From positions 29,820 to 93,819 of IMG/VR virus record IMGVR_UViG_3300009159_008491: a stretch of DNA of 64,000 nt; one strand, written 5' to 3'. This document shows, piece by piece, positions 1,397 through 35,365 of this stretch; within the stretch, counting starts at the first letter, position 1, and every line of letters begins with the position of its first letter. Source of the stretch: a virus. The translations under genes were made by a program, and so were the position numbers. The notes under the pieces are model-generated. The model made no database searches, had not been told where the DNA came from, and saw only the letters and a program-made list of their open reading frames with translations.

Positions 1397-2281
1397 TCAC
1401 TTATTTTTATTTAAAAAATTAGTTTTAAAAACTTTGTAAAAAGATTTAAATCTACTTAAAGAGTAAGTAATTTCTTTTGTTTCTAGTCCAGTTCTTTCTT
1501 TTAAAAGATAATAAATGGTATTTTTGTTATATAATTTAAGTAATTCGTGATTTTTAAAAACCCAAACAATTGCTTCTCCTACCTTACGATCATTAGGTAA
1601 CATTTTGGGTTTTTGAATTTCATCTTCTAATTTATTGATTACAGTTTCGAAAATTTTCATGTTAAAATCTTCTTTTTCAATTTCCTCGTAATTAATTATA
1701 TTTTCTGGTCTACCTGATGCTTCTTCTATACTTTCATCAATATCAACATTAGATTTTATGTGTTTATATTGAATTCTCTTTTCACCCATCAAATAATGTT
1801 TGGCGATTGTTCCTAAATAGGAAAATGCTTGAGTTCCATTTTTTGGATTAAATTTATCAATCTTGGTTATTAAAAAAGACATACAATCAACTTGAAGTTC
1901 TTTAACTTCTACATCTGATCTAAAGAGCTTATAAGTAAAAATTATATTTTCAATCAATTTAATCATTGGTTTATATAAATGTTTACTATAGATTTTATTC
2001 TTCTCATCTATATCTTGAGAATTTATATAATCAACTATAGCCTTTTCTTGTTCAGTAAACCAATATCTTTTTGAGCCTTCATATTTTTTATCAAGCTCAT
2101 TCATTGTTACTAAGTCTTTATAGTATTCCCTTAAAACAGATATATCAGGCGATCCATTTTCAGACTTTAAAATATCAGAAAAAGCACTTTTAAATAAAGT
2201 TTCATGAAGATAAACGTATTCATCTCCTACTGTATCAAATTTTAATTCATCAAGTTTTAATAATTTTTTGTTTTTTTCCAT
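1397..2281 (-). CDS. Late-transcription sigma factor, T4 gp55-like
   Basis: A 294-residue protein whose middle (about residues 100-170) resembles sigma-70 region 2 in the form found in T4/cyanophage gp55. It has a helical segment around LYKPMIKLIENIIF, then a conserved block with KIDKFNPKNGTQAFSYL, the counterpart of the FDPxxGxxFxTYA segment of region 2.2-2.3. No region 4 helix-turn-helix is obvious, as expected for gp55, which needs partner proteins at promoters. It is longer than T4 gp55 (about 185 aa), with extra N- and C-terminal helices. It would direct host RNA polymerase to late promoters. Alternative: a diverged ECF-type sigma. The assignment is from motif reading only. Confidence 0.6.
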   Translation of the reverse strand: MEKNKKLLKLDELKFDTVGDEYVYLHETLFKSAFSDILKSENGSPDISVLREYYKDLVTMNELDKKYEGSKRYWFTEQEKAIVDYINSQDIDEKNKIYSKHLYKPMIKLIENIIFTYKLFRSDVEVKELQVDCMSFLITKIDKFNPKNGTQAFSYLGTIAKHYLMGEKRIQYKHIKSNVDIDESIEEASGRPENIINYEEIEKEDFNMKIFETVINKLEDEIQKPKMLPNDRKVGEAIVWVFKNHELLKLYNKNTIYYLLKERTGLETKEITYSLSRFKSFYKVFKTNFLNKNK

Positions 2282-2294
2282 AAAATTAGAATGT

Positions 2295-2325
2295 AAAAAA
2301 GGGGTTTTTAGACCCCTTTTTCTTT
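2295..2325 (-). terminator. Rho-independent terminator after the GT2 gene
   Basis: A perfect AAAAAGGGG / CCCCTTTTT inverted repeat with a short T/A loop lies directly after the stop codon of the 2326-3267 gene. On the minus strand it is followed by a T-run. Because both flanks are A/T tracts it could act in both directions, but only minus-strand genes abut it. Confidence 0.85.
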
Positions 2326-3267
2326 TTAGGCTGATTGATAGATTTTATTTCTATCATTATCAAAGAAATATTCTTTTTTGGCTAAATCTGTCCAAAATTT
2401 AAATTCCTCTACTTTTAATCCTCCATTTTCAGGAGTTTTTTGCACTAAATCCATAGGTAATTTAGAGCTAAAATAATCGTACTTTTCAATGGTTTTATTT
2501 ATTCTACAATCATACCCCATTCTTGGTATTGTATAAAACTTAAGATCATTGTAAATCATTCTTAATAAGAATTCATAAGAATAATTAATTTTCATACTTT
2601 CTTTCATTGGCTTATATAAACCATCTTTTTCCTCTGCATACTTAATAATAGATTGTGTTTTAAAGACTGTACCTGCAATATTGATACAATTGAATCTTAA
2701 CATAAGATTTAAATCAAAAATACCGGCAACTTCAGCAAAACCATCAACCCAACAAGCTTCATTCATAAAACCAACAAATCCCATAGGTGAAATTTGTCTT
2801 GAAAGTGGAACAAATGCATCATATTCATTTTTTTCTGTTGAATATAAGTTAAAATATTTAACCCAATTTTTGGTTAAACTATCATCCATTTCTAAAACTG
2901 TAAACCATTCGTATTTATTGACGTTGGCATAATTTAAAGATTCATTAAAAATTTTAGAAAATGTATCTGATGAAGTTTCCTCAATAATAAAATTAATTTT
3001 ATTTTTTGCAGTTAATGTTATTGTTTCTTGCTCTCCTTGTTTTCCTTTTAATCTATCAATCGTAGGGTTATCAATAATTCTTTTTATTGTATTGATTGAT
3101 TCATTGTTTAAATTATGGCCCAATATTAATAAATCAACTAATTCATCTTGCTCTCCAAGTGAATAAAGGCATTCATTTAAAAATTTTTCCTCTATGCTAT
3201 TATTAAGAGGTAATACAAACAAAATTTTATTATTGTTTGAGCTTTTGTAATTCTTCAATTCTTTCAT
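2326..3267 (-). CDS. Glycosyltransferase-like protein, GT-A/GT2 type
   Basis: A 313-residue protein with an N-terminal beta-strand opening (KILFVLPLNNS) and a GT-A-like architecture. The acidic LEMDDS near residue 128 is a plausible DXD-type metal/nucleotide-sugar site. The C-terminal half has aromatic and acidic residues typical of acceptor-binding regions. It overlaps the upstream GT4 gene by 38 bases. The start at 3267 is kept because the first strand begins only about 14 residues in and no later Met precedes it. The pair probably acts on the same glycan. A strong terminator follows. Confidence 0.6.
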   Translation of the reverse strand: MKELKNYKSSNNNKILFVLPLNNSIEEKFLNECLYSLGEQDELVDLLILGHNLNNESINTIKRIIDNPTIDRLKGKQGEQETITLTAKNKINFIIEETSSDTFSKIFNESLNYANVNKYEWFTVLEMDDSLTKNWVKYFNLYSTEKNEYDAFVPLSRQISPMGFVGFMNEACWVDGFAEVAGIFDLNLMLRFNCINIAGTVFKTQSIIKYAEEKDGLYKPMKESMKINYSYEFLLRMIYNDLKFYTIPRMGYDCRINKTIEKYDYFSSKLPMDLVQKTPENGGLKVEEFKFWTDLAKKEYFFDNDRNKIYQSA

Positions 3268-4423
3268 GTTTATATTCGTTAAAGTTTTTTAGTAATGAAT
3301 TTTTTTCTGTTTCAGAAGTATATTTACTTAAAGTAATATCATATTGTTTATGAACTTCTTCTGAATCAAGTTGACCAGTGATCATTTTTTCAACAGCAAT
3401 ACCTAATAATTCTGCTAATTGGAATATATCACCATTAGCAGCCCAGAAACCATTATCTGCTGTCATGTATTCTTTTCCACCAAGTGGTGTCCAGCCTACA
3501 ACGTGTGTACCACAAGCCATTGCTTCTAAAGGCATTGTTCCAAAACCAGCAATTTCATCAGTGTATAGACAAATAGAAGATGAAGCTAATCTCTCAGAAA
3601 ATTCTTCTTTTGATAAGCCTTTTAGTTCATCAAATCTAATCCATCTAAAATTTGGATAAAATGAATAAAATGTTTTAATTACATTGTAAGTTTTTATAAC
3701 TGCATCTTGAGTTCTTCCCGGCATGAAAGCTATTTTAGGAAATTTATCAGTTATTTTATTTTTCTTAAAAGTTTCTCTATCTATTTCTTGAGTACAGTTC
3801 TTAATTTTTAAACCGGGCATAATTGCATTAATGTATTCAGATATTCCAGAAGAAATACTCATTACATCTTGAATTCCAAATTGTTGCCACTTTTGTCCAA
3901 TTTGCATTGAATTTAAAATATAATACCAGCTTTGTGCTAATATAATTTTTTTACATGCAATTTGAGAAAATTTTTCCATTACATTTGGAAAACCTTCTGG
4001 AATAATAACAAAATCTTCTGGGTTTATAACTAATTGTTGAGCTTTCATTGTTGTTCCATCATTGAAACGAATATCTCCTTCCCCTAATGTTATTAATTCA
4101 ACATCTGCGGCATCTTTTCCAATCCAACTAGTATCAAATTTTTCATGAACTGCAATTTGCTTCTTTTGTTTTTGTGATTCTTCATAAGAAGCTTTGTTAT
4201 CAACTCTTGGTTCATAAACAATAAAACTGTTGAATCCATTTTTCTTTAAAATGTTTACTTGTTTAAAAATAACTGAAATACCTCCAGAAGCTACATTCAT
4301 AGGTGGACAGTAATAATAAATTTTAAAATTATTGGACTCTAATTTTGAGATCACATCATTAATTATTTGGTTGTGATCTGGAGTTCCTTGTGAAATTTCC
4401 TTTTCTAATGTTTCTTGTGACAT
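3230..4423 (-). CDS. Glycosyltransferase, GT4 family (GT-B fold)
   Basis: A 397-residue protein. After an N-terminal helical extension, a Rossmann-like strand and glycine loop (CPPMNVASGG) open the first GT-B domain. The C-terminal donor-site block GFGTMPLEAMACGTHVVG is the classic GT4 signature: a Glu in an E-x7-E-like loop and a conserved Gly-containing segment that bind the nucleotide-sugar diphosphate. An MPGR segment near the domain junction also fits. It probably transfers a sugar from a nucleotide-sugar to a virion or surface glycan, together with the overlapping downstream gene. The substrate cannot be read from sequence. Confidence 0.85.
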   Translation of the reverse strand: MSQETLEKEISQGTPDHNQIINDVISKLESNNFKIYYYCPPMNVASGGISVIFKQVNILKKNGFNSFIVYEPRVDNKASYEESQKQKKQIAVHEKFDTSWIGKDAADVELITLGEGDIRFNDGTTMKAQQLVINPEDFVIIPEGFPNVMEKFSQIACKKIILAQSWYYILNSMQIGQKWQQFGIQDVMSISSGISEYINAIMPGLKIKNCTQEIDRETFKKNKITDKFPKIAFMPGRTQDAVIKTYNVIKTFYSFYPNFRWIRFDELKGLSKEEFSERLASSSICLYTDEIAGFGTMPLEAMACGTHVVGWTPLGGKEYMTADNGFWAANGDIFQLAELLGIAVEKMITGQLDSEEVHKQYDITLSKYTSETEKNSLLKNFNEYKHERIEELQKLKQ

Positions 4424-4468
4424 ATTTATTTTTTGTTTTAAAAATATTTTTTTATTGTATAAAGTAAA

Positions 4469-5140: not shown

Positions 5141-5177
5141 AACTTAAAAATATGTTTTTAAAAAAATAAAGTAAATA

Positions 5178-5206
5178 AAAAACCCCTCAAAATATAGAGG
5201 GGTTTA
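5178..5206 (-). terminator. Rho-independent terminator
   Basis: The inverted repeat AAACCCCTC / GAGGGGTTT with an 8-base loop lies between the genes at 5230 and 5140. On the minus strand it is followed by TTTATTTAC-type T-rich sequence. It would end transcripts coming from the 5230-7313 genes. Confidence 0.85.
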
Positions 5207-5229
5207 TAAAAATATTTTTTTTATATTTT

Positions 5230-5658: not shown

Positions 5659-5660
5659 TT

Positions 5661-7313
5661 TTAATATAATGTTATTTTGTTATAATCAAATCCATAACCA
5701 ATTTCTGGTTGTTTTCCTGTTATAAATCCCGGTAAATTATTGTTTCCTAATTCTTCTAAAATATATTTATCTGAAGAGGCGACAGAAGGAACTTTTAATG
5801 CTATAAAATTTGTCCCTTCTTCTACTTTTAGCGAATGCCAATGGCCTTGTACTAAAATAGTAAAACATCCGGGTTCTCCATATAAATTAACCAGTTCACT
5901 AGGTTTCTTTTTTGATAAAGAAGAATCTCCATGTTGGACAAATATACAAATGTTTTCTTTTACAATTTTGCAAAGATTATTTTTTGGTATAAAAAATTTC
6001 ATTCTATCATTTTCAAGTTCTCTTTTTAGAACATGTGAAATTACTTTTCCAGCAGTTCTACTTTTATCTTGATCTCTTCCAACTCCAACACGATCATGAT
6101 TTCCATGTATTGAATAAAATTCAATTGGACAAGAAGTATTGTTATGGATTTCTGATAATAAAACTTTAAGAGAGTCTACCGCATAGAAAATTTGTTCTTC
6201 TTGAAATAAATCCATTTCAGCTGTATGATTTGGATGCATACCATCTTCAAGAACACTCTCAACTAAATCTCCTAAATTTACTAATACAATTTCACTATTG
6301 TTTTGTTGATTATATTGCTCAAGAATTTTATTTTTTATTTCTATAATTCTTTCGTGAGCTATATTTTTATTATATCCTCTACCATAAATTGGATTATCAT
6401 ACTTTTTTCCATAGTGAATATCTCCAAAAAGACAGATAAGAGGTTTACCTTGATTTTTCTTTATCTTTTTATCTTTTGTTTCTTTTGGGGAAATAAGAGT
6501 ATTGCCACTAGAATTTTGAATGTATTTTGATACAACACTTTCAATCCATTCTTCATTATTTTTATATTCAATTATTAATTTGTGAGCATCTTTTAAGTTT
6601 TTCTCAACATATCTTCCACGTTCTTCTTCCAGTTTTTTAAGAATATTATTTTCTTTGTTTCTGAAAATTATATCCATAACTTCTTCCTCGGATGACTCTT
6701 CAATGATGTGAGGAGCCACAGGAATAGATGATTTTGTTATATTAAAAGCTCTTAAAATTCTTTTAAAATCTCTGAAGGTTAAGTTAGAAAAATGTCTTGA
6801 TACACTTCTTAAAGTCATTCCGGCACCATCCATATTTGAATATAGACGATAAACCAAATCCATTTCTTCTTTAGTAAAATAACCTTCTAAAGGTTTTTCA
6901 TCTCTAATAAAAATATTATAATGATACGATGTTATTTTTTTATTATCATCTCTTATTATTTCTGAAAAACTACGATCTTCATATTTATCATCTTCATATG
7001 CATCGTATTCTATTTGATTTTTTTCTTCATCAGTCAAATCCCCATTTTCAATAATAAGCTTTTCTACTACAGATAATTTGTTTTGTTTTTTATTATGAAA
7101 TTTATTTGTTTTGATGGTATTATAAAGGTCTAAAATTTCATCAGCTTGTTCTTGAGTTATTTGATTTTTATCAACTCTTTCATTTAAATCTTCGCAAAAT
7201 TTTGACACATAACCCTTTCCTCTTCCGTGTTTTAAACAAGCATCAGGTACTGAAACTTTTTTCTTAATTGAATAATTAAGGATTTGTATACAATTCTTGT
7301 AATATTGATTCAT
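5661..7313 (-). CDS. Calcineurin-like metallophosphoesterase with N-terminal helix-turn-helix-like region
   Basis: A 550-residue protein. Residues 1-200 are helical and basic, with segments that look like a small DNA-binding fold (KKVSVPDACLKHGRGKGYVS; TLRSVSRHF). From about residue 290 a complete calcineurin-like domain follows: FGDIHYGK (GDxH at 297-300), NLGDLVE, GNHDR, VQHGD and GHWHS, supplying the two-metal Asp, His and Asn ligands. It should hydrolyse a phosphomonoester or phosphodiester, possibly in DNA or a nucleotide. This is distinct from the Mre11-type domain at 59746. The nucleic-acid link is inferred from the N-terminal region. Confidence 0.8.
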   Translation of the reverse strand: MNQYYKNCIQILNYSIKKKVSVPDACLKHGRGKGYVSKFCEDLNERVDKNQITQEQADEILDLYNTIKTNKFHNKKQNKLSVVEKLIIENGDLTDEEKNQIEYDAYEDDKYEDRSFSEIIRDDNKKITSYHYNIFIRDEKPLEGYFTKEEMDLVYRLYSNMDGAGMTLRSVSRHFSNLTFRDFKRILRAFNITKSSIPVAPHIIEESSEEEVMDIIFRNKENNILKKLEEERGRYVEKNLKDAHKLIIEYKNNEEWIESVVSKYIQNSSGNTLISPKETKDKKIKKNQGKPLICLFGDIHYGKKYDNPIYGRGYNKNIAHERIIEIKNKILEQYNQQNNSEIVLVNLGDLVESVLEDGMHPNHTAEMDLFQEEQIFYAVDSLKVLLSEIHNNTSCPIEFYSIHGNHDRVGVGRDQDKSRTAGKVISHVLKRELENDRMKFFIPKNNLCKIVKENICIFVQHGDSSLSKKKPSELVNLYGEPGCFTILVQGHWHSLKVEEGTNFIALKVPSVASSDKYILEELGNNNLPGFITGKQPEIGYGFDYNKITLY

Positions 7314-7369: not shown

Positions 7370-8353
7370 TTATCTATAAGATTTTTTTCCTTGTAAAACA
7401 TCTAACCAATGATCACACATTTCATGTAAAAGTGTTTCAAAATAATACTCTGGTTCCCAATTTAATATTTTTCTTGCTTTTGAAGAATCTCCTTTTAAAT
7501 AAGGTAATTCTTCTGGCCTTAAATATTTTGCATCTTGTTTTATAACAATAGGATCAATATCAAGATAATTACAAACAATGTTGCACATTTCTCTTACCGT
7601 ATGTGTTTGCATTGTAGAAATTACAAAATCATCCGGTTCATTATGATTTAACATTAAATGCATTGCTTTCACATAATCTTTTGAATGTCCCCAATCACGA
7701 TATGAGTCCATGTTTCCTAAAAATAATTCTTTTTGTAATCCAAGTTTAATTGAACATAATCCTTTTGCAATTTTACTTGAAACGAAATTACTACCTCTTC
7801 TTGGCGATTCATGATTAAATAGAATTCCATTAGAAATAAATAAGTTATAAGCCCTTCTATAATGCCTAGTGATATTATAACCAAAGACCTTGGAACATCC
7901 ATATGGAGAAACAGGATTCATAATGGTTTTTTCTCTTTGAAATCCATCTTCATCTATGGTTAAACCAAACATCTCAGAAGAACTTGCTTGATAAAATTTT
8001 GCTTCAGGACAATTTTCTTTATAGGCTTCTAAAACATTTAACACGCCAAGAGCATTTATTTCTACTGTTAAATTTGGAATATCACTAGATATTCTCACAT
8101 GACTTTGTGCAGCTAAATTATAAATTTCATCAGGCTTTATTTTTGACAATAAATTATTTAAAGAATATTGATCAATTAGATCGCCATAATGTATATTTAT
8201 TTTATCTTCTATATGTTCTAATCTATAAGATTGATTTTCAGATACAGAGTGTCTTCTAACTATCCCATGAACCTCGTATCCTAAATTTAAAAGATGTTCA
8301 GAAAGATAACTTCCATCTTGACCTGATATTCCAGTTATAAAAGCTTTTTTCAT
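7370..8353 (-). CDS. gmd: GDP-mannose 4,6-dehydratase
   Basis: A 327-residue extended short-chain dehydrogenase with the Rossmann motif TGISGQDGSYL at its start, the NLAAQSHV segment, the SSSEMFG serine region and the catalytic YGCSK Tyr-x3-Lys. These together are characteristic of GMD. It converts GDP-mannose to GDP-4-keto-6-deoxymannose, the precursor of GDP-fucose, GDP-rhamnose and GDP-perosamine. Length is slightly short for bacterial GMD (about 345-370 aa). It is the last gene of the 21-gene minus-strand glycan operon and overlaps the upstream DegT-like gene by four bases (ATGA), which fits a 4-keto-sugar handed to an aminotransferase. A fucosyltransferase-like gene lies in the same operon. 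Confidence 0.93.
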   Translation of the reverse strand: MKKAFITGISGQDGSYLSEHLLNLGYEVHGIVRRHSVSENQSYRLEHIEDKINIHYGDLIDQYSLNNLLSKIKPDEIYNLAAQSHVRISSDIPNLTVEINALGVLNVLEAYKENCPEAKFYQASSSEMFGLTIDEDGFQREKTIMNPVSPYGCSKVFGYNITRHYRRAYNLFISNGILFNHESPRRGSNFVSSKIAKGLCSIKLGLQKELFLGNMDSYRDWGHSKDYVKAMHLMLNHNEPDDFVISTMQTHTVREMCNIVCNYLDIDPIVIKQDAKYLRPEELPYLKGDSSKARKILNWEPEYYFETLLHEMCDHWLDVLQGKKSYR

Positions 8354-9506: not shown

Positions 9507-10229
9507 TTATTTTTTTTTAGTTAAATTATTTATAACATTTATTATAAAACAAATTGTTATAATTATAAAACTAATAAAAAAAGATAATTTTTGCAACCCT
9601 AAAATTGATAAAAATATTAATATTGTAAAAGTTCCTGTTCCAAAATATTTTATTAATTCAATTGATTTGAAAATTTTTTTGTTTTCTATTTTGTAGAAGA
9701 AATAATAAAAAGAATAATAACAAATATTTTTAGAAAAAAAGTAATATCTATAAAACAATCCATTTTTTTGATTTTCTACTGATTTACTTTTAAAAGAATT
9801 AGTTTTCTCAAAATTACTTACAGCATCAAGTGTTCCTATGTGTAGTAACATAGGAAATATGAATAGCAATATAGAGAAAAAAGCATAATAATCAGATTTT
9901 AAAAAAAATGTCAATAAGAATAGAAAGCCAACAATGTGATCTTTGTTCCAATCATATACTGCTCCAAAAAAAGAACATTCATTATACTTTCTTGCAACTT
10001 GCCCATCAACACAATCTAAAACATAATAAATAAAATAAAAAATTACTGCAATTATTAAATGATTATATAAATAAAATACAGGTGATAAAAATGAAAAAAA
10101 TAATGAAATTGTGGTTATGTTAGATGGCGATAAACCCATTTTATGTAATGGGTCTACAAGTATATTAGCTATTTTTCTAAATATATATAAATCTAAAGGG
10201 TCTTCTAGGTTTTTGTTGTAACTTGGCAT
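9507..10229 (-). CDS. CDP-alcohol phosphatidyltransferase-family integral membrane protein
   Basis: A 240-residue, strongly hydrophobic protein with about six predicted membrane segments. It carries the full family signature D72-xx-D75-G76-xx-A79-R80-x8-G89-x3-D93-x3-D97, with every metal and CDP-binding residue present. Such enzymes transfer a phospho-alcohol from a CDP-alcohol to an acceptor hydroxyl in the membrane (phosphatidylglycerol-phosphate, phosphatidylinositol or sialyl-like lipid synthesis, for example). It overlaps the upstream methyltransferase by one base and lies next to an alkaline-phosphatase-superfamily gene. This is an unusual gene for a phage. It suggests phospho-polyol or phospholipid-linked modification, with the substrate open. 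Confidence 0.9.
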   Translation of the reverse strand: MPSYNKNLEDPLDLYIFRKIANILVDPLHKMGLSPSNITTISLFFSFLSPVFYLYNHLIIAVIFYFIYYVLDCVDGQVARKYNECSFFGAVYDWNKDHIVGFLFLLTFFLKSDYYAFFSILLFIFPMLLHIGTLDAVSNFEKTNSFKSKSVENQKNGLFYRYYFFSKNICYYSFYYFFYKIENKKIFKSIELIKYFGTGTFTILIFLSILGLQKLSFFISFIIITICFIINVINNLTKKK

Positions 10230-10939
10230 TATTTTTTTTCTATTAATACATTATAACGATATGGTGCTGAAAGATTCCAATCAAAATTACAAATATCAAT
10301 TTGATTAAATATTTTAATATCACAATTGTTATCTTTAGCAAAATTTTCAAATAAAGATTTTGGTAAATATAAATGTTTTAAATCTTCTTTTATAATTTTA
10401 TCACTTGATTGATGTGTTTCCTTTCTTAATTTTTTTGCAAGTTCTTCTTTTTCTTTATCTGAAATATCTATAATTAATATTTTGCCGCTCTTAGAAGTCT
10501 GATACATTTTTTTAAGTACCTCTAAAGCATATTCTTCATTTTCAAGATAAATAAAAGTTCCAACATTAAAAACAAAATCATATTTTTCATCTTCACAAAC
10601 CCATTTCTCATTTTGAGCATCATCTACCCAAAAATTACCTTGTATATTATCTTTGCAGATTTTTATAAGTGACTCGGAATAATCAAATCCGTTTAATAAA
10701 ATATTTGGATAATTTTCATTTATAAATCTTATTGCAGCTCCTGCACCACAGCCAAGCTCCATAATAGAATCAATATTTTTTAAATAATCTTTAATAGGAA
10801 AAAAACTATTTGATAAAAAATTATCCCATTGTTTTTTTTCTAGGTGATCCCATCCATCTAACTGGTGAAGATCTTTGTTTTGAAAACCTTTTTTGTTCCA
10901 AACCTCTTTCCAATCATTTTTTTGTTTTACTACATCCAT
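10229..10939 (-). CDS. Class I SAM-dependent methyltransferase
   Basis: A 236-residue protein with SIMELGCGAGAAIRFI (motif I), NGFDYSESLI (motif post I), and YDFVFNVGTFIYL (motif II). The N-terminal WKEVWNKKGF is typical of small-molecule or sugar methyltransferases of the Methyltransf_25/12 type. It overlaps the upstream sulfatase-like gene by ten bases and the downstream membrane enzyme by one, so it is translated as part of the operon. Likely target: a glycan or phospho-glycan intermediate. Confidence 0.85.
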   Translation of the reverse strand: MDVVKQKNDWKEVWNKKGFQNKDLHQLDGWDHLEKKQWDNFLSNSFFPIKDYLKNIDSIMELGCGAGAAIRFINENYPNILLNGFDYSESLIKICKDNIQGNFWVDDAQNEKWVCEDEKYDFVFNVGTFIYLENEEYALEVLKKMYQTSKSGKILIIDISDKEKEELAKKLRKETHQSSDKIIKEDLKHLYLPKSLFENFAKDNNCDIKIFNQIDICNFDWNLSAPYRYNVLIEKK

Positions 10940-12012: not shown

Positions 12013-12076
12013 ATTTGATTAATATTATAATACTTTATAATAATAAGTAATTTTTAATCAAATGTAAATTTTTATT

Positions 12077-19675: not shown

Positions 19676-20538
19676 TAGTATAATATTTCTTTTAATAATT
19701 CTGTTAGTTGTTGTGCTCTAACAAAATATGTATGATTATCTAAAACATGATTATACCCTTCATTAGATATGTTTTCTAGTTTATCTGTGTTTTTAAGATA
19801 GTAACTTATTTTATCTAACAAATCTTTTTCTGAATTATAAACCACTAAGTGTTTGTTTAAATCAAATAATTTTTCTAAACTGGGAGTATGATTTGTAAAA
19901 AGCGTTGTTTTGCATCCAAGAGTTTCGAATGTTCTAAAGTTAATATCATCAGCTAAGTTTCTATTAAAATGAATCTTGTAAGAATTTATGGCTTTTACCA
20001 TATCGTTCCCAATTACAAAAACATCTTCTCTTAACCTATATTTACTTTTTATTAGATCAATCCAATTTTTTCTATTAAGATAGTTTCCACAAAATCCAAT
20101 GTCATATTTTTTTTCTATTTCTGACATTGGAAAAATTAAATCATCAGGATATGCATTCGGAAACCAAATTGTTTGTTGCTTTTTAAAATATGTTTGATGA
20201 TGTTCTATAGCACATAAAACCAATTGTATTTTATGTTTATTACAAGTATCTACATGTTGCTGTGGAACACAGTGAGAATCAATCGACCAAAAAATTTTGA
20301 ATTTTTTACTTTGAGATAAATCTGGAATCCAGCCGTTTATTTCATAGTTTTCCAACAATATGATAACATCACATTTTTCCTCCAGTTCTTTAAATGAAAT
20401 ATTGAAGTTATCGTAGTTTAAACCCCATACAACAGAATCATGACCCAATTTCTTTAAAGCTCTACTTAAATTGAGTGCCTCCCTAAATTCTTGATTTGCT
20501 AAGTGCCTTCCTTTTTCCTGTATTAATAAAAAATTCAT
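19675..20538 (-). CDS. Glycosyltransferase, CgeB-like (GT-B C-terminal domain)
   Basis: A 287-residue protein. The N-terminal half has a Rossmann-type strand order. The C-terminal block DINFRTFETLGCKTTLFTNH, then LVVYNSEKDLLDKISYYL and HTYFVRAQQL, matches the Glyco_trans_1_2/CgeB type of spore-maturation and capsule glycosyltransferases. The Glu in FRTFETLGC is the expected donor-binding residue. It overlaps its neighbours by one base on each side. Confidence 0.8.
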   Translation of the reverse strand: MNFLLIQEKGRHLANQEFREALNLSRALKKLGHDSVVWGLNYDNFNISFKELEEKCDVIILLENYEINGWIPDLSQSKKFKIFWSIDSHCVPQQHVDTCNKHKIQLVLCAIEHHQTYFKKQQTIWFPNAYPDDLIFPMSEIEKKYDIGFCGNYLNRKNWIDLIKSKYRLREDVFVIGNDMVKAINSYKIHFNRNLADDINFRTFETLGCKTTLFTNHTPSLEKLFDLNKHLVVYNSEKDLLDKISYYLKNTDKLENISNEGYNHVLDNHTYFVRAQQLTELLKEILY

Positions 20539-21206
20539 TATAATGCTAGATCAAAATTATTTTTTTTTCTTTTTTCATAATTCACTTTATCAACATTATT
20601 AAATGAATCATTTTTTACTTGTAAATTATCCCACTTTTCTCCTAACCATACCGGATGTTCATGTTTAATTATTACATGTGGTATGTATTTTACTTTATTA
20701 AGTATTCTAGAAACATCTGTAAATTCAGTATCACACCAAAGACTTACATATGTGGGGTTATATATATAACCAAATCGATCATAATATTTTTTGCCAAGTA
20801 TGGATAATGTATTTAAGTTTGAACCTTGATATCCATCGTTAAACCATAAAACTCCATCAGTATCTGGAAAGAATTTTTTAAAACTTTGTTTAATTATTGT
20901 ATCATATCCTTTTTCTTGAGGTATCATGTCATCAGAAGCAAGTAAAATCATATCATAATCATTATCATTCATATCAGCATTAATTGCCTCTATTTTGTTT
21001 TTATTATTTCCAAAGTAGAATTTTAGATTTTCATATTCTTTAAATTTGTTTATAATAATTTCATTATTCATTGTAGAATCGTCAGCGTCACAACTGATTA
21101 TGAATCTAGTATTTGACAAATCATCCAAAAGATTATAATATTTATCTAAAACTAAAAAAAACTTATCAGGTCTTGATCTTGTAGGGAATTTAATTAGTAA
21201 TTTCAT
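20538..21206 (-). CDS. Glycosyltransferase, GT2-like
   Basis: A 222-residue protein starting KLLIKFPTRSRPDKF, with a first nucleotide-contact region ISCDADDST and the strand MILLASDDMIPQ containing the DD metal motif. GT-A fold of GT2 type. The FPTRSRP opening is common in phage and polysaccharide-locus proteins of this type. It overlaps the upstream gene by 17 bases. Confidence 0.75.
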   Translation of the reverse strand: MKLLIKFPTRSRPDKFFLVLDKYYNLLDDLSNTRFIISCDADDSTMNNEIIINKFKEYENLKFYFGNNKNKIEAINADMNDNDYDMILLASDDMIPQEKGYDTIIKQSFKKFFPDTDGVLWFNDGYQGSNLNTLSILGKKYYDRFGYIYNPTYVSLWCDTEFTDVSRILNKVKYIPHVIIKHEHPVWLGEKWDNLQVKNDSFNNVDKVNYEKRKKNNFDLAL

Positions 21207-22721: not shown

Positions 22722-22801
22722 GTCTCAAAAGTATAAATAAACTTTTTAATAGAAATAATAGTTTTTAAAAAATTCTTTCTATTTATATGAAAATATTAAA
22801 T
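22722..22801. promoter_or_regulatory. Divergent intergenic promoter region
   Basis: This short region separates the start of the minus-strand glycan operon from the plus-strand genes. It contains a CTATTTATA box on the plus strand (22779-22787) and a TATTTATAC on the minus strand (22731-22739). If the plus box is a promoter, the ATG at 22787 lies inside it and translation would start at 22802 instead. Confidence 0.4.
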
Positions 22802-24224: not shown

Positions 24225-24233
24225 AATAAATAG
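24225..24233 (-). promoter_or_regulatory. Candidate late-promoter box CTATTTATT
   Basis: An exact CTATTTATT on the coding strand lies 16 bases upstream of the ATG at 24208, in the 32-base gap after phoH. Surrounding sequence (ATACTATTTATTGTAAAA) matches copies at 25041, 46125 and 47618. Confidence 0.5.
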
Positions 24234-24948: not shown

Positions 24949-25066
24949 AAAAAACTTATTTATTTATAAATATACTATAAATATTATTATATGTGATTAT
25001 TAGATTAAATTATAAATTTAAAAAATAATATTTTAGTAAACTATTTATTTAAATAAATCTCAAAAG
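24949..25066. promoter_or_regulatory. Divergent intergenic region with boxes on both strands
   Basis: The 118-base gap between phoH and the next plus-strand gene is almost pure A/T. On the minus strand TATATTTATA (24965-24974) lies 16 bases from the phoH start. On the plus strand an exact CTATTTATT (25041-25049) lies 17 bases from the ATG at 25067. Both are probably divergent promoters of the same class. Confidence 0.5.
25041..25049 (+). promoter_or_regulatory. Candidate late-promoter box CTATTTATT
   Basis: Exact copy, 17 bases upstream of the ATG at 25067, in context AAACTATTTATTTAAAT. The spacing equals that of the copy before the 47600 fibre gene. Confidence 0.55.
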
Positions 25067-27436: not shown

Positions 27437-28699
27437 ATGTCAGATAACAAAATTAAAATTTTATTGGTGCCAAGTGATTTGGCAGGTGTAGGTCATTACA
27501 GAAACATTTGGCCGGGTCAAGAAATTAATAAAAAATTTGGAGATAGATTTAAAATTGAAATAGATCACACACCAGATTTTAATGATGTAAACTTTTTCGC
27601 ACAATTTGATATTGTACATTTCCATAGACAATTAGGTCAATTTGAAAATCAAGAAAAATTAATTAAAGAATTACGTAACAGAGGAGTTATCACAATTATG
27701 GATCTTGACGATTATTGGATGCCACCGAAAGAACATCCAATGTATGGAGCAGCTATAAAAGAAAGGCTTGCAGAAAAAGTTACAGCAACATTTAAAATGG
27801 TTGATTATGTTACAACTACAACTGATATTTTTGCTAGTCATATAAAAAAATATAATCAAAATGTTGCAGTAATTCCAAATGCAATTGATATGTCTCATCC
27901 TATGTGGTCACAGGAAGATACAAGAAAATCAGATAGAATAAGAATCTCTTGGATCGGAGGATCTAGTCATGAAAAAGATTTAGAGTTACTTAAGAGTTCT
28001 ATGAATATTCTTCATAATGATTCTAATCTAAATGGAAAATATCAAATAGTAATGTGTGGATATGATGTTAGAGGGTATATTACTGAAGTAGACCAAAATG
28101 GTAATGTTATCAATAATAGAAAAATATTCCCACACGAAACAATATGGAATAAATTTGAATCAATATTCACTGATAATTATAATACAAATTTAATTTCAGA
28201 ATCTTATAAAAAATATTTATTAAGATATGAAAATATTAATTTTAAAGATCAAGATGTTTATGAAGGGCCATATGTTAGAAGATGGACATTGCCATTAACT
28301 CAATATGGTAAACATTATAACTATTGTGATGTTTGTTTGGCCCCTCTTGCTGAAAATACTTTTAATGAAGTAAAATCCGAATTAAAGATCATTGAGGCTG
28401 GACTGACTAAAAAAGTGTTAATAGCTCAAGAATACGGTATTTATAAAGATTTAATCAAACATGGTGAAAATGGTATTTTAATACCAAAATCAAAAAATGT
28501 TAGAGGGTGGTACGAAGCCATAAAAAAGGTTGTTAATGATAAAGAGTACAGAGAAATGCTTTCAAGTAACTTGTATGATTTTGTAAAAGATAAATATACT
28601 CTTGAGGTAGTAACGGCAAAGAGAGTTGCTTGGTACGAAGAAATATTTGAAAAAAATAAGAAAAATAGTCTGATTTTAACGGAATCATTATCAAACTAA
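27437..28699 (+). CDS. Glycosyltransferase, GT4-like (GT-B fold)
   Basis: A 420-residue protein. ILLVPSDLAGVGHYRNIWPG opens the N-terminal domain with the Gly-rich acceptor loop. VAVIPNAIDMSHP is the interdomain GT4 motif and RISWIGGSSHEKD begins the donor domain. SELKIIEAGLTKKVLIA with GENGILIPKSKN is the conserved E-x7-E-like donor-binding region. It lies apart from the minus-strand glycan cluster, among presumed virion genes, so it may glycosylate a virion protein. Confidence 0.87.
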   Translation: MSDNKIKILLVPSDLAGVGHYRNIWPGQEINKKFGDRFKIEIDHTPDFNDVNFFAQFDIVHFHRQLGQFENQEKLIKELRNRGVITIMDLDDYWMPPKEHPMYGAAIKERLAEKVTATFKMVDYVTTTTDIFASHIKKYNQNVAVIPNAIDMSHPMWSQEDTRKSDRIRISWIGGSSHEKDLELLKSSMNILHNDSNLNGKYQIVMCGYDVRGYITEVDQNGNVINNRKIFPHETIWNKFESIFTDNYNTNLISESYKKYLLRYENINFKDQDVYEGPYVRRWTLPLTQYGKHYNYCDVCLAPLAENTFNEVKSELKIIEAGLTKKVLIAQEYGIYKDLIKHGENGILIPKSKNVRGWYEAIKKVVNDKEYREMLSSNLYDFVKDKYTLEVVTAKRVAWYEEIFEKNKKNSLILTESLSN

Positions 28700-30425: not shown

Positions 30426-30433
30426 CAAATATA
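30426..30433 (-). promoter_or_regulatory. Possible Bacteroidota -7 element (TATATTTG)
   Basis: TATATTTG fits TAnnTTTG and lies 20 bases from the exonuclease ATG. The nearest upstream TTG is 27 bases away, outside the usual spacing, so the promoter is uncertain. Confidence 0.3.
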
Positions 30434-30443: not shown

Positions 30444-30845
30444 TTAAATTTCGGTTATTTCAAATTCATCTAAACCACAACCTTCTCCATCTTCACCAAA
30501 ATCTCCTGTTTTTTCATCGGTTAACCAACCCCTAAATACAGCAGAATATCCATTTTTGTCATCTCCATCAGGATAAGATTCTAAATAAGCCTCTGTACCT
30601 TGATCAAACCACTCATCTGGTTTGGTTATAAATCTATAGTTTTGTTTATAAATTTTATAACTATAATTGTTATCTGGTTTAAAATAATCAATAAATCTAT
30701 CTTCAAAAATACTGAACCATTTATTATTTATTATTATAAAATGATCATAAGATGATCTTCCTTCATATGATAAATAAATTATATCATTATTTTTAAGGTC
30801 TTCAATTTTTATTTCTTGCCAGAATGGTTTATTGAATCTACTCAT
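30444..30845 (-). CDS. Hypothetical protein, 133 aa, acidic C-terminus
   Basis: An aromatic-rich protein (FIIINNKWFSIFEDRFIDYF) followed by a Gly/Asp-rich tail (SYPDGDDKNGYSA; GDFGEDGEGCGLDEFE). The beginning LKNNDIIYLSYEGRSSYDHF suggests a small beta-barrel. It overlaps the end of topA by four bases, hence it is part of the takeover block. Function unknown. Confidence 0.6.
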   Translation of the reverse strand: MSRFNKPFWQEIKIEDLKNNDIIYLSYEGRSSYDHFIIINNKWFSIFEDRFIDYFKPDNNYSYKIYKQNYRFITKPDEWFDQGTEAYLESYPDGDDKNGYSAVFRGWLTDEKTGDFGEDGEGCGLDEFEITEI

Positions 30846-33172
30846 TTTTTCTTAGCGTATTTTTTGGGTTTAGCTGAACTTTTACCTTCTCCGATTATGT
30901 CTTCACAATCTTTTTTGGTAATAGTTTCTATATCATAAATAGCCGGAATCTTATAATTTTTATTCTTGAATTTAATATATGGTCCATATTGACCACTTAA
31001 TACTTTAATTTCACCGAATTCTTTTGTAGATCCCGATTTTTCATTGCTTGAATTTTCTTTTATTAATTCTGTAGCTTCCTTTAGAGTTATTTTTTCAGGA
31101 TCATATTCCGTATTCGATAATCCAACAAATTTACCATCATATTTGATATATGGTCCAAATTTACCAATTGCTACCAGTACAGGTTTTGATTTATATTCTC
31201 CTAGATTTCTAGGCCATTTTAAAAGTTCTAAAGCCTCTTCGAGATTTATGCCACCAACTTCTTTATCTTTAGGGATAGATGCATATTTTAAATCTTCATC
31301 TCCTTTTTCACCTAATTGTACCATTGGCCCAAATCTTCCAAAACGAGCATAAATATTTTTCTTGGTAGATTTATCAACACCAATTAATCTTTCGTTTGAT
31401 GTTCCGGTTTCACCAAGAGCAGATTTAACTTTCTTATCAAAAGGAGAATAAAAATCTTTTAACATTGTTTTCCATTCTTTACTGCCTTCTGAAATTTCAT
31501 CTAATTGATTTTCTATTCCAGCAGTAAATTTATAATCCATGATATCTGGAAAATTTTCTGTAAGATAATCACAAACTACAATACCAATTTCTGTAGGTAT
31601 CATCTTAGCTTTTTCTGTACCAAATTTTTCATCTAGTTCAGTAGTAGATAAATTATCATTTTTTAATGAAAGGTTTTTTACTTTTCTAGATTTTGCTGGT
31701 AAATCTTTTTTCTCAACATATTCTCTTTTTTGAATAGTTGATAAAATTGAAGCATAGGTAGAAGGTCTTCCTATTCCAAGTTCTTCTAGTCTCTTTACTA
31801 AAGACGCTTCATTATATCTAGCTGATGGTTTTGAATAGATTTCTAAACCTTCAATTTGTTCGTAATTAAGAATTTGACCTTTCTCCATTTTTGGTAAAGT
31901 GCCATTGTCATCTTGATCTTCTTGATTTTCTTCCTCTTCAACATCATCATTATTATAAACCTTTAAGAAACCATCGAATGTAATCACTTCTCCTTTGGCA
32001 ACAAATAATTCTTTTTTTCCAGTATTAGAACTTTCAATTTCAATAGTGGTTTTATCAAGTAATGCATCCGACATTTGAGAGGCTACTGCTCTTTTCCAAA
32101 TTAAACTATAAAGTTTCATTTCATCTTGACCAGAAACTACTTCTTCATGTTCAAAATGAGTTGGTCTTATTGCTTCATGGGCTTCTTGAGCACTGGCGTT
32201 TTTATTTTTAAATTTTTTCGGATTTGAAAATTTATTACCATACTTCTCAACTATAAATTGAGTTGCTGTTTGAACAGATTCTTCTGATAAATTTACACTG
32301 TCAGTACGATGGTAAGATATATGACCTTGCTCGTAAAGATTTTGAGCAGTTCTCATAGTTCTATCCACACTGAATCCAAATTTTTTTGATGCTTCTTGTT
32401 GTAATCCTGAAGTTGTAAATGGAGCAGGTGAACTTCTTTTTCCCGGTTTAGTTTCAATTAAACTAACACTAAATTCTGAACCAATTAATTTGCTTAAAAA
32501 CTTTTCTGTTTCCTCATAGTTTTTAAATCTTTTATTTAATACGGCTTTTATTTTTTGTTTTTTACCACCTTTATCAATTGAGAAAATTGCAACAACTTTG
32601 TAATCAGAAGTTGAATCAAAAGACTTGTGTTCTTTTTCTCTTTCAACAAGAATTCTTAAAGCAACACTTTGAACTCTTCCTGCAGATAAACCTAATTTGA
32701 TTTTTTTCCAAAGCAATAGAGAAAGATCAAATCCTACTAAACGATCTAATACCCTTCTTGCTTGTTGGGCATTAACCATATTCATATTAAGTGTTGTAGG
32801 ATTATTTATTGCATCCTTAAGAGCTTTTTCAGTAATCTCTTTAAAAATAATTCTTTTTGTTTTTTTGATGTTTAAACCAAGTACTTCTGCAACGTGCCAA
32901 GAGATTGCTTCACCTTCCAAATCGTAGTCACCAGCAAGAATTACTTCATCACATTTTTTTGCTAACTCTTTTAGTTCTTTTACTACATCTTTTTTATCAG
33001 ATGAAATTTGGTATGAAGGTTCAAAATCATTTTTTTTATCAATACCTTCTTTTCCTTTTTTTAATTCACGAATATGTCCAACACTTGCTTTTACAACATA
33101 ATCTTTTCCTAGGAAAGATTGAATTTTTTTAATCTTTCCGGGACTTTCACATATAACTAATTTTTTACCCAT
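30842..33172 (-). CDS. topA: DNA topoisomerase I, type IA, bacterial-type
   Basis: A complete 776-residue enzyme. The TOPRIM domain starts KKLVICESPGKIKKIQ, with the Asp-x-Asp-x-Glu site in AGDYDLEGEAISWH. The LGLSAGRVQSVALRILVERE block precedes the active-site Tyr287 in HISYHRTDSVNL. GIGRPSTYASIL is the conserved C-terminal core motif. The end holds Gly-rich repeats (RFGPMVQLGE; KFGPYIKYDG; QYGPYIKFKN) as in Bacteroidota TopA, followed by a basic tail. It relaxes negative supercoils. A full host-like TopA is uncommon in phages, and its place after sigma genes points to control of transcription or replication topology. Confidence 0.95.
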   Translation of the reverse strand: MGKKLVICESPGKIKKIQSFLGKDYVVKASVGHIRELKKGKEGIDKKNDFEPSYQISSDKKDVVKELKELAKKCDEVILAGDYDLEGEAISWHVAEVLGLNIKKTKRIIFKEITEKALKDAINNPTTLNMNMVNAQQARRVLDRLVGFDLSLLLWKKIKLGLSAGRVQSVALRILVEREKEHKSFDSTSDYKVVAIFSIDKGGKKQKIKAVLNKRFKNYEETEKFLSKLIGSEFSVSLIETKPGKRSSPAPFTTSGLQQEASKKFGFSVDRTMRTAQNLYEQGHISYHRTDSVNLSEESVQTATQFIVEKYGNKFSNPKKFKNKNASAQEAHEAIRPTHFEHEEVVSGQDEMKLYSLIWKRAVASQMSDALLDKTTIEIESSNTGKKELFVAKGEVITFDGFLKVYNNDDVEEEENQEDQDDNGTLPKMEKGQILNYEQIEGLEIYSKPSARYNEASLVKRLEELGIGRPSTYASILSTIQKREYVEKKDLPAKSRKVKNLSLKNDNLSTTELDEKFGTEKAKMIPTEIGIVVCDYLTENFPDIMDYKFTAGIENQLDEISEGSKEWKTMLKDFYSPFDKKVKSALGETGTSNERLIGVDKSTKKNIYARFGRFGPMVQLGEKGDEDLKYASIPKDKEVGGINLEEALELLKWPRNLGEYKSKPVLVAIGKFGPYIKYDGKFVGLSNTEYDPEKITLKEATELIKENSSNEKSGSTKEFGEIKVLSGQYGPYIKFKNKNYKIPAIYDIETITKKDCEDIIGEGKSSAKPKKYAKKK

Positions 33173-33173
33173 A

Positions 33174-33545
33174 TTATTTTAATTTTTTTGGTCTTCCTCT
33201 TTTTTTCTGAGGTAATACATTTTTTTCTGAAATTGAATCTATAATAATTATTTTTTTATTTTCTTCTAATTTAGAAGGAATATCAAACCAAGTTTCTTTC
33301 AAATCCTTAATATGTTCCTCTAATTTCTTTTTGGTCCATATGTAATTTTTTACAATAGTAATTGTGCCTTGATCTTCGGTTATCCAAAATATTTTTTTTA
33401 TATTATTGTTTTCGTTTAATTCAACATTATAAAAAGGGCCTTCCTTGTAATTCATTCTTACAGAAGTTCCTTTGTCAATTATCGTCCCATCATTTAATTT
33501 GATGTTCTCAATAAGTTTCATATAAGTTATTTTAATATTTGTCAT
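33174..33545 (-). CDS. Hypothetical protein with C-terminal AT-hook-like motif
   Basis: A 123-residue protein. The N-terminal part is a small beta fold (INDG-type strands, GTSVRMNYKEGPFYNVELN) and the middle is helical with Trp residues (IWTKKKLEEHIKDLKETWFD). The C-terminus PQKKRGRPKKLK contains the AT-hook core RGRP flanked by Lys, which binds the minor groove of AT-rich DNA. It lies between the first sigma gene (four-base gap) and topA (one-base gap). A DNA-binding cofactor is plausible. Confidence 0.6.
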   Translation of the reverse strand: MTNIKITYMKLIENIKLNDGTIIDKGTSVRMNYKEGPFYNVELNENNNIKKIFWITEDQGTITIVKNYIWTKKKLEEHIKDLKETWFDIPSKLEENKKIIIIDSISEKNVLPQKKRGRPKKLK

Positions 33546-33549
33546 ATTT

Positions 33550-34416
33550 TTAAATGTGTTGACGTAATACTTTACTGTTTTTGTTGCACTTTAAAATTCT
33601 AATGGTCATATCTTTAATTTGACGAACACGTTCTCTGGTTAAATCAAGATAATCTCCAATTTCCTCTAAAGTCATAGTTTGATAACCAAGTATACCATAA
33701 TACATGCAAATAATTACACGCTGTCTAGGTTGAAGACTCTTTAAAATTTTTTCAAGATCCTTAGAAAAAGATTCTTTTATTAAAAATTCATCCGGAGATT
33801 TTGTTTCTTTGTTAACAATACAATCACTTAAAAAAACATCGTCACTATCTGAGGAAACAGGGCTATCAAGAGATGCTACTCTTCCAGTGTTGCTTAGCAT
33901 TGTATCTCTAACTTTAATTTCACTCTCTTCTAAAACTTGAGCAAGTTCTTCTTCTGTAGGTTCTCTTTCAAGTTTTATTTCAAGTTTTTGAATAGTTTTA
34001 TTTAGTTTGTTTATTGCTAAATTTTGATTGTTCGGCAATCTTATTAATTTTCCATTATCAGAAATTGATTGCATAATAGATTGACGTATCCACCACACAG
34101 CATAAGATATAAATTTAAAACCTCTGGAATTATCAAATCTTTCCGCAGCTTTTATTAATCCTACATTTCCGTCTGAAATTAAATCTTCTAAACTTAAACC
34201 TTGGTTTTGAAATTGCTTTGCCACTGAAACAACAAAACGGAGATTAGCTTTCACTATATCATTTAGTGCTGCTTTATCTCCGTTTGCTACTCCTTGTAAA
34301 AGATTGTGTTCTTCCTCTTCTGTTAATAGTTTTATTTTTGAAACTTCTGAGAAATAATAATCTAAAGATTTACTTTCTCGCTTGGTGATTGATTTTGTTA
34401 TTTTTAGTTGCCTCAT
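33550..34416 (-). CDS. Sigma-70 family factor closely resembling the Bacteroidota primary sigma factor
   Basis: A 288-residue protein starting MRQLKITKSIT, the hallmark N-terminus of Bacteroidota RpoD, and of the same length (about 286-288). Region 1.2/2.1 (NLRFVVSVAKQFQNQGLSLEDLI), region 2.3-2.4 (RGFKFISYAVWWIRQSI, 99-114, with both Trp of the W-dyad), region 3 (REPTEEELAQVL) and region 4.2 (MTLEEIGDYLDLTRERVRQIK) are all intact. It should direct host RNA polymerase to TAnnTTTG-type promoters. A matching TTG-N20-TATATTTG promoter precedes it. Confidence 0.95.
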   Translation of the reverse strand: MRQLKITKSITKRESKSLDYYFSEVSKIKLLTEEEEHNLLQGVANGDKAALNDIVKANLRFVVSVAKQFQNQGLSLEDLISDGNVGLIKAAERFDNSRGFKFISYAVWWIRQSIMQSISDNGKLIRLPNNQNLAINKLNKTIQKLEIKLEREPTEEELAQVLEESEIKVRDTMLSNTGRVASLDSPVSSDSDDVFLSDCIVNKETKSPDEFLIKESFSKDLEKILKSLQPRQRVIICMYYGILGYQTMTLEEIGDYLDLTRERVRQIKDMTIRILKCNKNSKVLRQHI

Positions 34417-34448
34417 AGTGTGTGATTGCTTTAATTAAAAGTAATTCA

Positions 34449-34479
34449 CAAATATAATAAACAACCGTCATAAAGACAA
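34449..34479 (-). promoter_or_regulatory. Host-type promoter TTG-N20-TATATTTG
   Basis: On the minus strand TTG (34477-34479) is separated by 20 bases from TATATTTG (34449-34456), 32 bases before the first sigma-factor ATG. This matches the Bacteroidota primary-sigma consensus TTG-N(17-23)-TAnnTTTG. It lies in the 91-base gap between the two sigma genes and would give early expression by host polymerase. Confidence 0.6.
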
Positions 34480-34507
34480 CTAATTTTTTATAATTTTATA
34501 ATTTTTA

Positions 34508-35365
34508 TTAAAGTTCAATTTCTGATTTGAAATGTCTTTCCAAATAATGTCTTAATTTTTTTAAAGCTTTAATCTTTATCTGTCTTACACGTTCTCCGGA
34601 TAATTCTAATCTATATCCAACTTCACTGTAAGTCATTTCCCTGTTTTCTTTGTTTAAACCAAAAGAATACAATAAAACTTCTTTTTCCATGTGTCCTAAA
34701 CAAGAAAATGCTAATTTGAGTTGTATTTTTCTTGAATCATCAGAAATAAATTTTTCAATACCTGCATTTTTATCCTCAATAACATCTAAAAGAGTAGTTT
34801 CATTATCATTACTTATTTTAGAATCTAATGAAGTTGCACTGTTTCCGCTAACAAGAATGTTATATGTTTCATGGTCTATATTAAGTTCTTTACAAACTTC
34901 ATCAATAGAAAAATTACCATTATTTTCTTGGCTCTTTTTAGCTACTAAATGTTTTAATTCATGTTGTTGTTGAATTTTGTTCTGCGGCATTCTAACGGTT
35001 TTTGCATTTTTGCTCAACGCCTCTAAAATACATTGTCTAATCCAGCTTACTGCATAAGAAATAAATTTAAAACCTCTTGTTTCATCAAATCTTTGTGCTG
35101 CTTTAATTAAACCCATATTTCCTTCTGCAATTAATTCTTCTAATGGAAGGCCTCTGTTTTGATATTGTTTAGCAACAGAAATTACAAACCTTAAATTTGA
35201 TGTAACTAGCTCATTTTCAGCAATTTTATCGCCTTTTTTAATTCTTTGTGCTAGTTCAATTTCTTTAGCAGGATCAATCATTGGAATTGATTGAATTTCA
35301 TTGAAATACTTTTCAGAAATAAATGACCTTTCTGTAATTGTAGCAGTAATTTTTAGTTGTCTCAT
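34508..35365 (-). CDS. Second, diverged RpoD-like sigma factor
   Basis: A 285-residue paralogue of the previous gene, starting MRQLKITATITERS. Regions 2 and 4 are full length (RGFKFISYAVSWIRQCI; MTYSEVGYRLELSGERVRQIK). Two promoter-reading positions differ from the primary form. The first Trp of the W-dyad (YAVWW) is Ser (YAVSW). The Arg in LTRERVRQ of region 4.2, counterpart of the -35-contacting Arg584 of E. coli sigma-70, is Gly (LSGERVRQ). These changes suggest a changed promoter preference or reduced melting. It lies upstream of the first sigma gene in transcription order. Confidence 0.93.
   Translation of the reverse strand: MRQLKITATITERSFISEKYFNEIQSIPMIDPAKEIELAQRIKKGDKIAENELVTSNLRFVISVAKQYQNRGLPLEELIAEGNMGLIKAAQRFDETRGFKFISYAVSWIRQCILEALSKNAKTVRMPQNKIQQQHELKHLVAKKSQENNGNFSIDEVCKELNIDHETYNILVSGNSATSLDSKISNDNETTLLDVIEDKNAGIEKFISDDSRKIQLKLAFSCLGHMEKEVLLYSFGLNKENREMTYSEVGYRLELSGERVRQIKIKALKKLRHYLERHFKSEIEL

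Follow-up and report, generated by a model that had tools for sequence, protein, structure and literature searches.

Sigma factor genes of the window

We analyzed a 64,000-nucleotide stretch of DNA from a large Bacteroidota phage (here called the window) that comprises bases 29820-93819 of the 93,819-base IMG/VR virus record IMGVR_UViG_3300009159_008491 (G0, or G000). Three open reading frames (ORFs) on its minus strand, all found at the positions listed in Table 1, encode the proteins studied here: two adjacent RpoD-like sigma factors, which we call SigA and SigB, and a gp55-like protein. An initial annotation, made from the sequence alone, had described three sigma factors in the window, and we likewise find two full RpoD-like factors with a Bacteroidota N terminus plus a remote relative of gp55. 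For the wider phage group three is a lower bound, because a 216,699-base IMG/VR relative (G3), the closest of the long relatives, carries a fourth sigma factor of the extracytoplasmic function (ECF) type. G3 is collinear with G0 over about two thirds of its length, mostly at 73-87% nucleotide identity as estimated from aligned blocks.

SigA and SigB share their size, domain order, and N-terminal sequence with the primary sigma factor (RpoD/sigma-A) of Bacteroidota. Sigma70 regions 1.2, 2, 3, and 4 all score over the Pfam cutoffs in both proteins, and both begin with MRQLKIT; among the 11 host RpoD rows shown, eight start with MRQLKI and four of them with exactly MRQLKIT. Unlike that factor, the phage proteins reach at most 52% identity to it among the loci listed (48-52% to SigA for the best 80 bacterial loci among the matches listed, mostly Bacteroidota and Ignavibacteria). 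They also fall below the curated NCBIfam RpoD cutoff (TIGR02393; 228.7 bits for SigA and 183.2 for SigB versus 354), and we therefore class them as RpoD-like only. Their identity to each other is 38-39%.

The gp55-like protein is more difficult to place. Its own sigma matches are subthreshold (Pfam Sigma70_r2, E = 0.17; NCBIfam TIGR02937, E = 1e-4, under the cutoff), it has no PHROG match, and neither it nor five relatives match the gp55 family phrog_234. Relatives were found at 16 IMG/VR loci and in 6 phage records, which include Flavobacterium phage immuto and Microcystis phage Mel-JY01 (both annotated hypothetical) and a metagenomic phage (unannotated), and there was no match in 18 further contigs, mostly fragments. 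When an 18-row profile of this family was compared with eight gp55 proteins, hhalign returned a probability of 72, a P value of 3.3e-5, and a score of 39.9, whereas column shuffles reached at most 19.5 and 19.7 (60 each) and reversed profiles 13.8 and 14.2. The signal depends on the diversity of the rows: distant family members alone scored 47.7 and close members alone 25.4, and the family scored 24.8 against T4-family gp55 alone and 35.2 against the other gp55s. Against host RpoD and phage RpoD-like factors, the family scored 19.9 and 30.1, respectively.

The AlphaFold model of the protein is of moderate quality (predicted local distance difference test, 71.6; predicted template modeling score, 0.40). 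A Foldseek search with it gave nothing significant (best E, 0.24), and T4 gp55 was not seen among the 50 listed rows. Rescoring of the Foldseek candidates with VIA-align gave the 50 listed entries Z scores of 8.0-10.3, values that, as the tool warns, helical models can attain by chance; judged from their titles and lengths, these entries represent sigma factors or, in polymerase complexes, sigma-like subunits. Residues 71-176 align with sigma region 2 (Escherichia coli sigma-E, Z = 9.7, root mean square deviation [rmsd] 2.9; Mycobacterium tuberculosis SigC, Z = 9.2, rmsd 2.2). Rows spanning residues 71-294 have an rmsd of 23-27, and so the fit is limited to residues 71-176 and leaves the second part unplaced. 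We regard the protein as gp55-like in kinship and in probable role but not as a member of gp55 itself; the late factor of the initial annotation thus stands as a remote gp55 relative, identified by profile comparison.

T4 gp55 and the window protein are alike in their sigma-2-level profile similarity and in a late-type box, TATAAATA in T4 and the similar CTATTTAT here. The window protein is larger (294 versus 185 amino acids [aa]), has an extra C-terminal helical part, and is without both the gp55 PHROG match and an obvious hydrophobic-acidic tail of the T4 type. gp55 reads late promoters together with gp33 and the sliding clamp, to which its C-terminal tail binds. By eye this tail is absent from the window protein, as it is from the cyanophage gp55s that we compared.

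An old tandem pair

A widened search of phage loci gave 99 distinct RpoD-like ORFs and, in addition to that of the window, 11 tandem pairs, a count for which rows with identical first 250 residues were merged and near-copies such as L006-L008 were left uncounted. SigB comes first and SigA second in every pair. Four IMG/VR contigs hold a SigA of 89% identity adjoining a SigB of 65% identity. Among the phage records listed (40 of 233), we identified no isolate that carries the tandem. Scanning IMG/VR with SigB alone yielded no relative because the patterns were too specific; SigB orthologues were recovered from the flanks of SigA loci and by an alignment query.

A first tree contained 40 of 81 host rows, with identical phage rows dropped, and a later, more careful tree contained 46 rows, 12 of them from hosts. 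In the 46-row tree, which makes the comparison with host RpoD that the initial annotation had called for, a branch (96/94) separates the 12 host rows from the rest. SigA is likewise set off by a branch (79/96, not starred), and its subgroups mirror those of SigB. A grouping of SigA and SigB together was not rejected by the approximately unbiased (AU) test (P = 0.28). The proposal that the two are diverged paralogues, with duplication and specialization likely, agrees with this picture of an old pair that was kept together; specialization in particular is made likely by differing promoter wiring, a differing -35 reading helix, and quicker change in SigB.

Promoter elements of the pair

We compared up to 160 nucleotides (nt) before the start codons in the 12 pair loci. 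The pattern TA[TC]ATTTG, represented in the window by TATATTTG, occurs upstream of SigA in 12/12 loci and upstream of SigB in none. The -7 box of the Flavobacterium psychrophilum primary factor has the sequence TAnnTTTG (PMC9723704). The reciprocal distribution is seen for an element that we call N16, [GAT][TCA]AA[CT]-N16-CGT[AT], which lies upstream of all 12 SigB genes and 0/12 SigA genes; a stricter form starting with TG is present in 10 of the 12. Its CGT part stands at a spacing of 16 in 12 loci, and every other spacing in the range 8-25 accounts for 0-4 loci. The element lies 28-44 nt from the SigB start except in L038 (108 nt).

The N16 element also recurs across whole genomes, and its box differs between phage lineages. 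A genome-wide peak at spacings 16-17 was found in G3, G43, G42, G8, and G12. In G3, TGTAAC..CGTT has 14 sites at spacings 16-17 versus 3 summed over the remaining 16 spacings in the 8-25 range; in G43, seven of eight GTAAy..CGTTAT sites at spacings 10 to 23 fall at 16. G42 and G43 belong to the same species and together cover about 241 kb, and G43 is incomplete, since G42 extends 8,644 bases beyond its end. Apart from SigB, N16 stands before KaiC/DnaB/Sak4-type P-loop ATPase genes in the diverged phages G3 and G43, and these genes are homologous to each other (32% identity, one-way best hit). G7 and G9, with a single distant RpoD-like factor each, have no N16 peak, and TTGAC..TAnnnT gave no clear spacing peak. 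Nor is N16 enriched in 25 Bacteroidota genomes drawn from the best 80 listed bacterial loci for SigA (124 matches versus 147 for an N13 control and 180 for the reversed N16 pattern).

A further element, class c (TTTACTTT-N15-TATwTT), was found in 3, 2, 7, and 3 regions of G3, G0, G43, and G42, respectively, versus random maxima of 1, and is tentative because the reverse strand of G43 also gives 3.

A late-type box

The 8-mer CTATTTAT is concentrated in the sense orientation within 60 nt of gene starts (8/16 sites for G0, 13/23 for G3, and 17/38 for G43). By the same criterion, its reverse complement gave 3/16, 3/23, and 3/38, and two control 8-mers together gave 0/24, 4/65, and 3/76. The genes behind it in the window encode 71 to 1401 aa and include large, probably structural ones, and those in G3 include a 913-aa ORF in the place of the terminase. 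The T4 late box TATAAATA was considered for the same role (within 60 nt of a start at 8/39, 6/67, and 25/137 sites in G0, G3, and G43) and was not adopted because it is less position specific than CTATTTAT. The two boxes are unlike overall, but by eye TATnnAT is common to both.

DNA-reading residues of SigA and SigB

The -35 reading helix of SigA, TRERVRQIKD (preceded as LTRER or ITRER), is present in 11/11 complete copies; the SigA of L010 is cut off at a contig end and was excluded from the helix counts. Five of the six hosts shown have TR at the same place in the helix, and the sixth has TQ. Through these host-like reading residues, SigA fits a possible role as a stand-in for host RpoD, whose replacement was one of the options raised in the initial annotation. 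In SigB the -35 arginine, at what we take to be the equivalent of E. coli R584, is absent from 12/12 copies, with G, S, A, K, P, T, or N in its place. The tryptophan dyad (WW; presumably W433 in the numbering used) is altered among SigB proteins only in the window (SW) and in L005 (AW).

The residue that follows RQI in SigB varies together with the N16 element. The -35 box of N16 reads AAT in one clade of five loci and AAC in the other seven. This SigB residue is S, T, A, A, or I in the five AAT loci and K or R in six of the seven AAC loci, the exception being L258 (I), while the corresponding SigA residue is K in 11/11. The covariation points to SigB as the putative reader of N16.

A proposed sigma factor relay

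We consider it somewhat more probable than the contrary that the phage runs its own multi-sigma transcription program, in which SigA, SigB, and the gp55-like factor would serve separate promoter classes, probably with the host core RNA polymerase. There is a good likelihood that the host RpoD holoenzyme would transcribe SigA early. SigA, with its host-type reading residues, would then, by a modest balance of probability, keep host-type promoters active under phage control. SigB, with its altered reading head, would read a phage-specific class, most likely N16 itself, and turn on a middle set of genes; by reading N16 it would therefore amplify its own synthesis. The gp55-like factor would, quite probably, direct late genes from CTATTTAT. 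The middle-transcription step suggested in the initial annotation is partly supported, in that N16 forms a class apart from the host-type and late boxes, before SigB and the ATPase genes; its middle timing is something we infer. We hold only tentatively, at a little below even confidence, a fuller version in which a captured primary sigma factor was duplicated long ago to give a host-type SigA and an autoregulated SigB, an RpoD-type protein reading TTGTAAy-N16-CGTw on an ECF-like layout, which with the gp55-like factor (and an ECF factor in some members) would make up a four-class relay.

Several points weigh against this proposal. The assignments of readers (SigA, SigB, gp55-like, and ECF) are ones that we infer from sequence. 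A SigB that reads its own N16 promoter needs a separate first supply of SigB. SigB is split in the best tree, with a single SigB clade not rejected (AU test, P = 0.35), and the AAC/AAT covariation amounts to one evolutionary event. The looser pattern TA..TTTG also matches once upstream of the SigB of L009. In 2000 Markov shuffles the best result was three loci for either upstream pattern, a figure that overstates the surprise because both patterns were derived from these same regions. The phage contigs may be incomplete, as G43 certainly is. In a second clade (L012, L016, L267, and L293), a single RpoD-like factor has an N16 promoter and keeps the TRER helix, and an ECF gene lies behind an N16-headed gene in three out of four contigs there, two of which are near-copies. 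Finally, N16 has an ECF-type architecture, with a CGT -10 box at a fixed spacing from an AAC-type -35 box.

Candidate readers of N16

From these sequence patterns, we estimate SigB to be the foremost candidate reader of N16, at somewhat under even probability; an ECF factor of phage or host is a plausible but less probable candidate, SigA an improbable one, and any other factor would be very surprising.

The strongest alternative, which we find possible though doubtful, holds that N16 is an ECF promoter through which a phage or host ECF sigma factor turns on SigB and the middle genes, and that SigB reads a further class such as the tentative TTkACTTT. Besides the CGT box and the fixed spacing, it can draw on the attribution of host CGT-box promoters to ECF factors in F. 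psychrophilum (PMC9723704). It can also draw on ECF genes in G3 (199979-200656, L154/L155, beyond the part of that genome that matches the window's contig) and, in the second clade, in G8, G48, G49, and G50. An N16-headed gene followed by the ECF gene was seen in G8 and in G49 with its near-copy G50 (by eye, in a GAAC form), and none was seen in G48. However, no canonical ECF gene was found in the incomplete G43/G42 genome (up to E = 10 for G43); in G51, G52, and G53 (79- to 125-kb fragments), PF04542 matches nothing beyond the two RpoD-like factors; and G12, a 47-kb fragment, keeps its N16 sites without an ECF gene at the syntenic place. The lack of N16 enrichment in the 25 Bacteroidota genomes also argues against this alternative, and a second N16 variant, TAAACC..CGTATTGAT, clustered by the G3 ECF gene, suits an ECF factor better; G43 has no intergenic copy of CGTATTGAT. 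The G43/G42 and G12 results weaken, without removing, the ECF factor as the obvious reader.

Other ECF-like sequences were observed in these genomes. In G8, the ECF sigma factor is in one frame with an HNH-type endonuclease-like region (31040-32143, L204; by eye). Weak ECF-like sigma matches were found in a 949-aa protein of G43 (42563-45412, L165:2563-5412; E = 6.7e-8, no Pfam match) and in a 687-aa protein of G3 (114001-116064, L150; E = 3.3e-6), whose gene follows one with a late-type box. These two are possibly virion proteins holding a sigma-like domain.

An unlikely alternative is a linear relay in which host RpoD makes SigA, SigA reads N16 and so makes SigB, and SigB then acts on a later class. 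Such a relay agrees with the promoter order, and the TRER-type sigma factor of the second clade co-occurs with N16, but SigA has the helix and WW dyad of the host factor, which reads TAnnTTTG, and the SigA residues are unchanged where the -35 box of N16 changes.

The initial annotation also raised a decoy or titration function, whereby the RpoD copies would occupy the host core polymerase, shut down host transcription, and read no promoters. Sigma region 2, which holds the main core-binding surface, is kept in both proteins, and titration could be a side effect. Nevertheless, the DNA-reading helix is kept in all 11 complete SigA copies, region 4 of SigB is still matched despite its altered helix, and each factor retains its own promoter type in 12/12 loci, which makes a pure decoy very improbable. 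Recent host contamination or misassembly, for which we found no point in favor, is refuted as the source of the pair, since the tandem is flanked by portal and topoisomerase genes and recurs in 11 more viral loci, the host rows stand on their own side of the tree, and no listed bacterial RpoD exceeds 52% identity to SigA.

Neighboring genes and other features

We take the window to be from a T4-like phage because of the genes near the sigma factors: a T4-type portal gene and a topoisomerase gene, between which the pair sits, a terminase gene with an intein, and genes for a DnaQ-like exonuclease, PhoH, an exonuclease (phrog_284, 5661-7313), and an SbcC-like protein. The intein that splits the terminase large subunit gene (38768-41509) has a LAGLIDADG-type domain, and the portal ORF of G3 (71119-74262, 1047 aa) by eye seems interrupted too. 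The topoisomerase gene (30842-33172) encodes a complete bacterial-type DNA topoisomerase I and adjoins the pair; among the flanks examined, the closest relative alone also has it next to the pair, and in G43 it is found elsewhere (56% identical). Genes resembling those for GDP-mannose dehydratase, methyltransferase, and glycosyltransferase (7370-8353, 10229-10939, 20538-21206, and 27437-28699) may belong to a module for glycan synthesis or DNA decoration.

Table 1. Sigma factor genes, promoter elements, and adjacent conserved genes, numbered from the first base of the window
Feature	Position	Strand	Remarks
114-aa gene downstream of gp55-like gene	1013-1357	-	Homologue at same place in 232-kb relative
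gp55-like sigma factor, 294 aa	1397-2281	-	Sigma-2-like part, about residues 71-176, plus C-terminal helical part
Tentative class-c element before 397-aa gene	4441-4468	-	
Tentative class-c element before 223-aa gene	5147-5175	-	TTTACTTT-N15-TATwTT
Host-type box before 360-aa gene	12059-12066	-	TA[TC]ATTTG
CTATTTAT box abutting 125-aa gene	22779-22786	+	
CTATTTAT box before 71-aa ORF	24226-24233	-	
CTATTTAT box before 299-aa gene	25041-25048	+	
Host-type box before DnaQ-like exonuclease gene	30426-30433	-	TA[TC]ATTTG
SigA, RpoD-like sigma factor, 288 aa	33550-34416	-	WW dyad (2.4) and LTRERVRQIK helix (4.2), both host-type
TATATTTG box upstream of SigA	34449-34456	-	Bacteroidota-type -7 box
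SigB, RpoD-like sigma factor, 285 aa	34508-35365	-	Helix LSGERVRQIK; WW changed to SW
N16 element upstream of SigB	35393-35417	-	GTAAC-N16-CGTT
275-aa gene upstream of SigB	35443-36270	-	Conserved in 11/11 other pair loci
97-aa gene upstream of SigB	36289-36582	-	Conserved in 11/11 other pair loci
CTATTTAT box before 1401-aa gene	46126-46133	-	Collagen-repeat, tail-fiber-like product
CTATTTAT box before 475-aa gene	47619-47626	-	
CTATTTAT box before 850-aa gene	52052-52059	-	

Comparison with known systems

Bacteroidota use an unusual promoter code, and gene timing in their large phages is little described in the literature searched. In these phages the regulators can be set beside their probable targets: as many as four types of sigma factor, and separate promoter boxes that divergent phages have kept. 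This opens the way to direct in vitro tests and offers candidate phage promoter/sigma pairs for Bacteroidota and a natural case in which a primary-type sigma factor was duplicated, probably with new DNA specificity in one copy.

In Bacillus phage SPO1, successive phage sigma factors yield early, middle, and late classes of transcription. The phages described here resemble SPO1 as multi-sigma phages with putative successive classes and differ from it in their sigma families and hosts.

The view in the initial annotation, in which T4-type phages as a rule combine host sigma-70 with gp55, proved too narrow. According to PMC7824862, an RpoD-like factor and a "minimal" smaller sigma factor are encoded by T4-like (group 2) jumbo phages that have no RNA polymerase of their own, Bacteroidetes phages among them, and PMC13282480 also places both kinds in T4-like jumbo phages. 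We found no report of the tandem pair or its promoter wiring in the open-access literature (one library searched). The window shares with the group 2 jumbo phages an RpoD-like plus a smaller sigma factor in a T4-like phage, and it differs from their description, in the portion of PMC7824862 consulted, by its conserved RpoD-like tandem and linked promoter classes. RpoD-like sigma factors in T4-like jumbo phages are therefore known, whereas the tandem and its wiring appear new in the literature searched.

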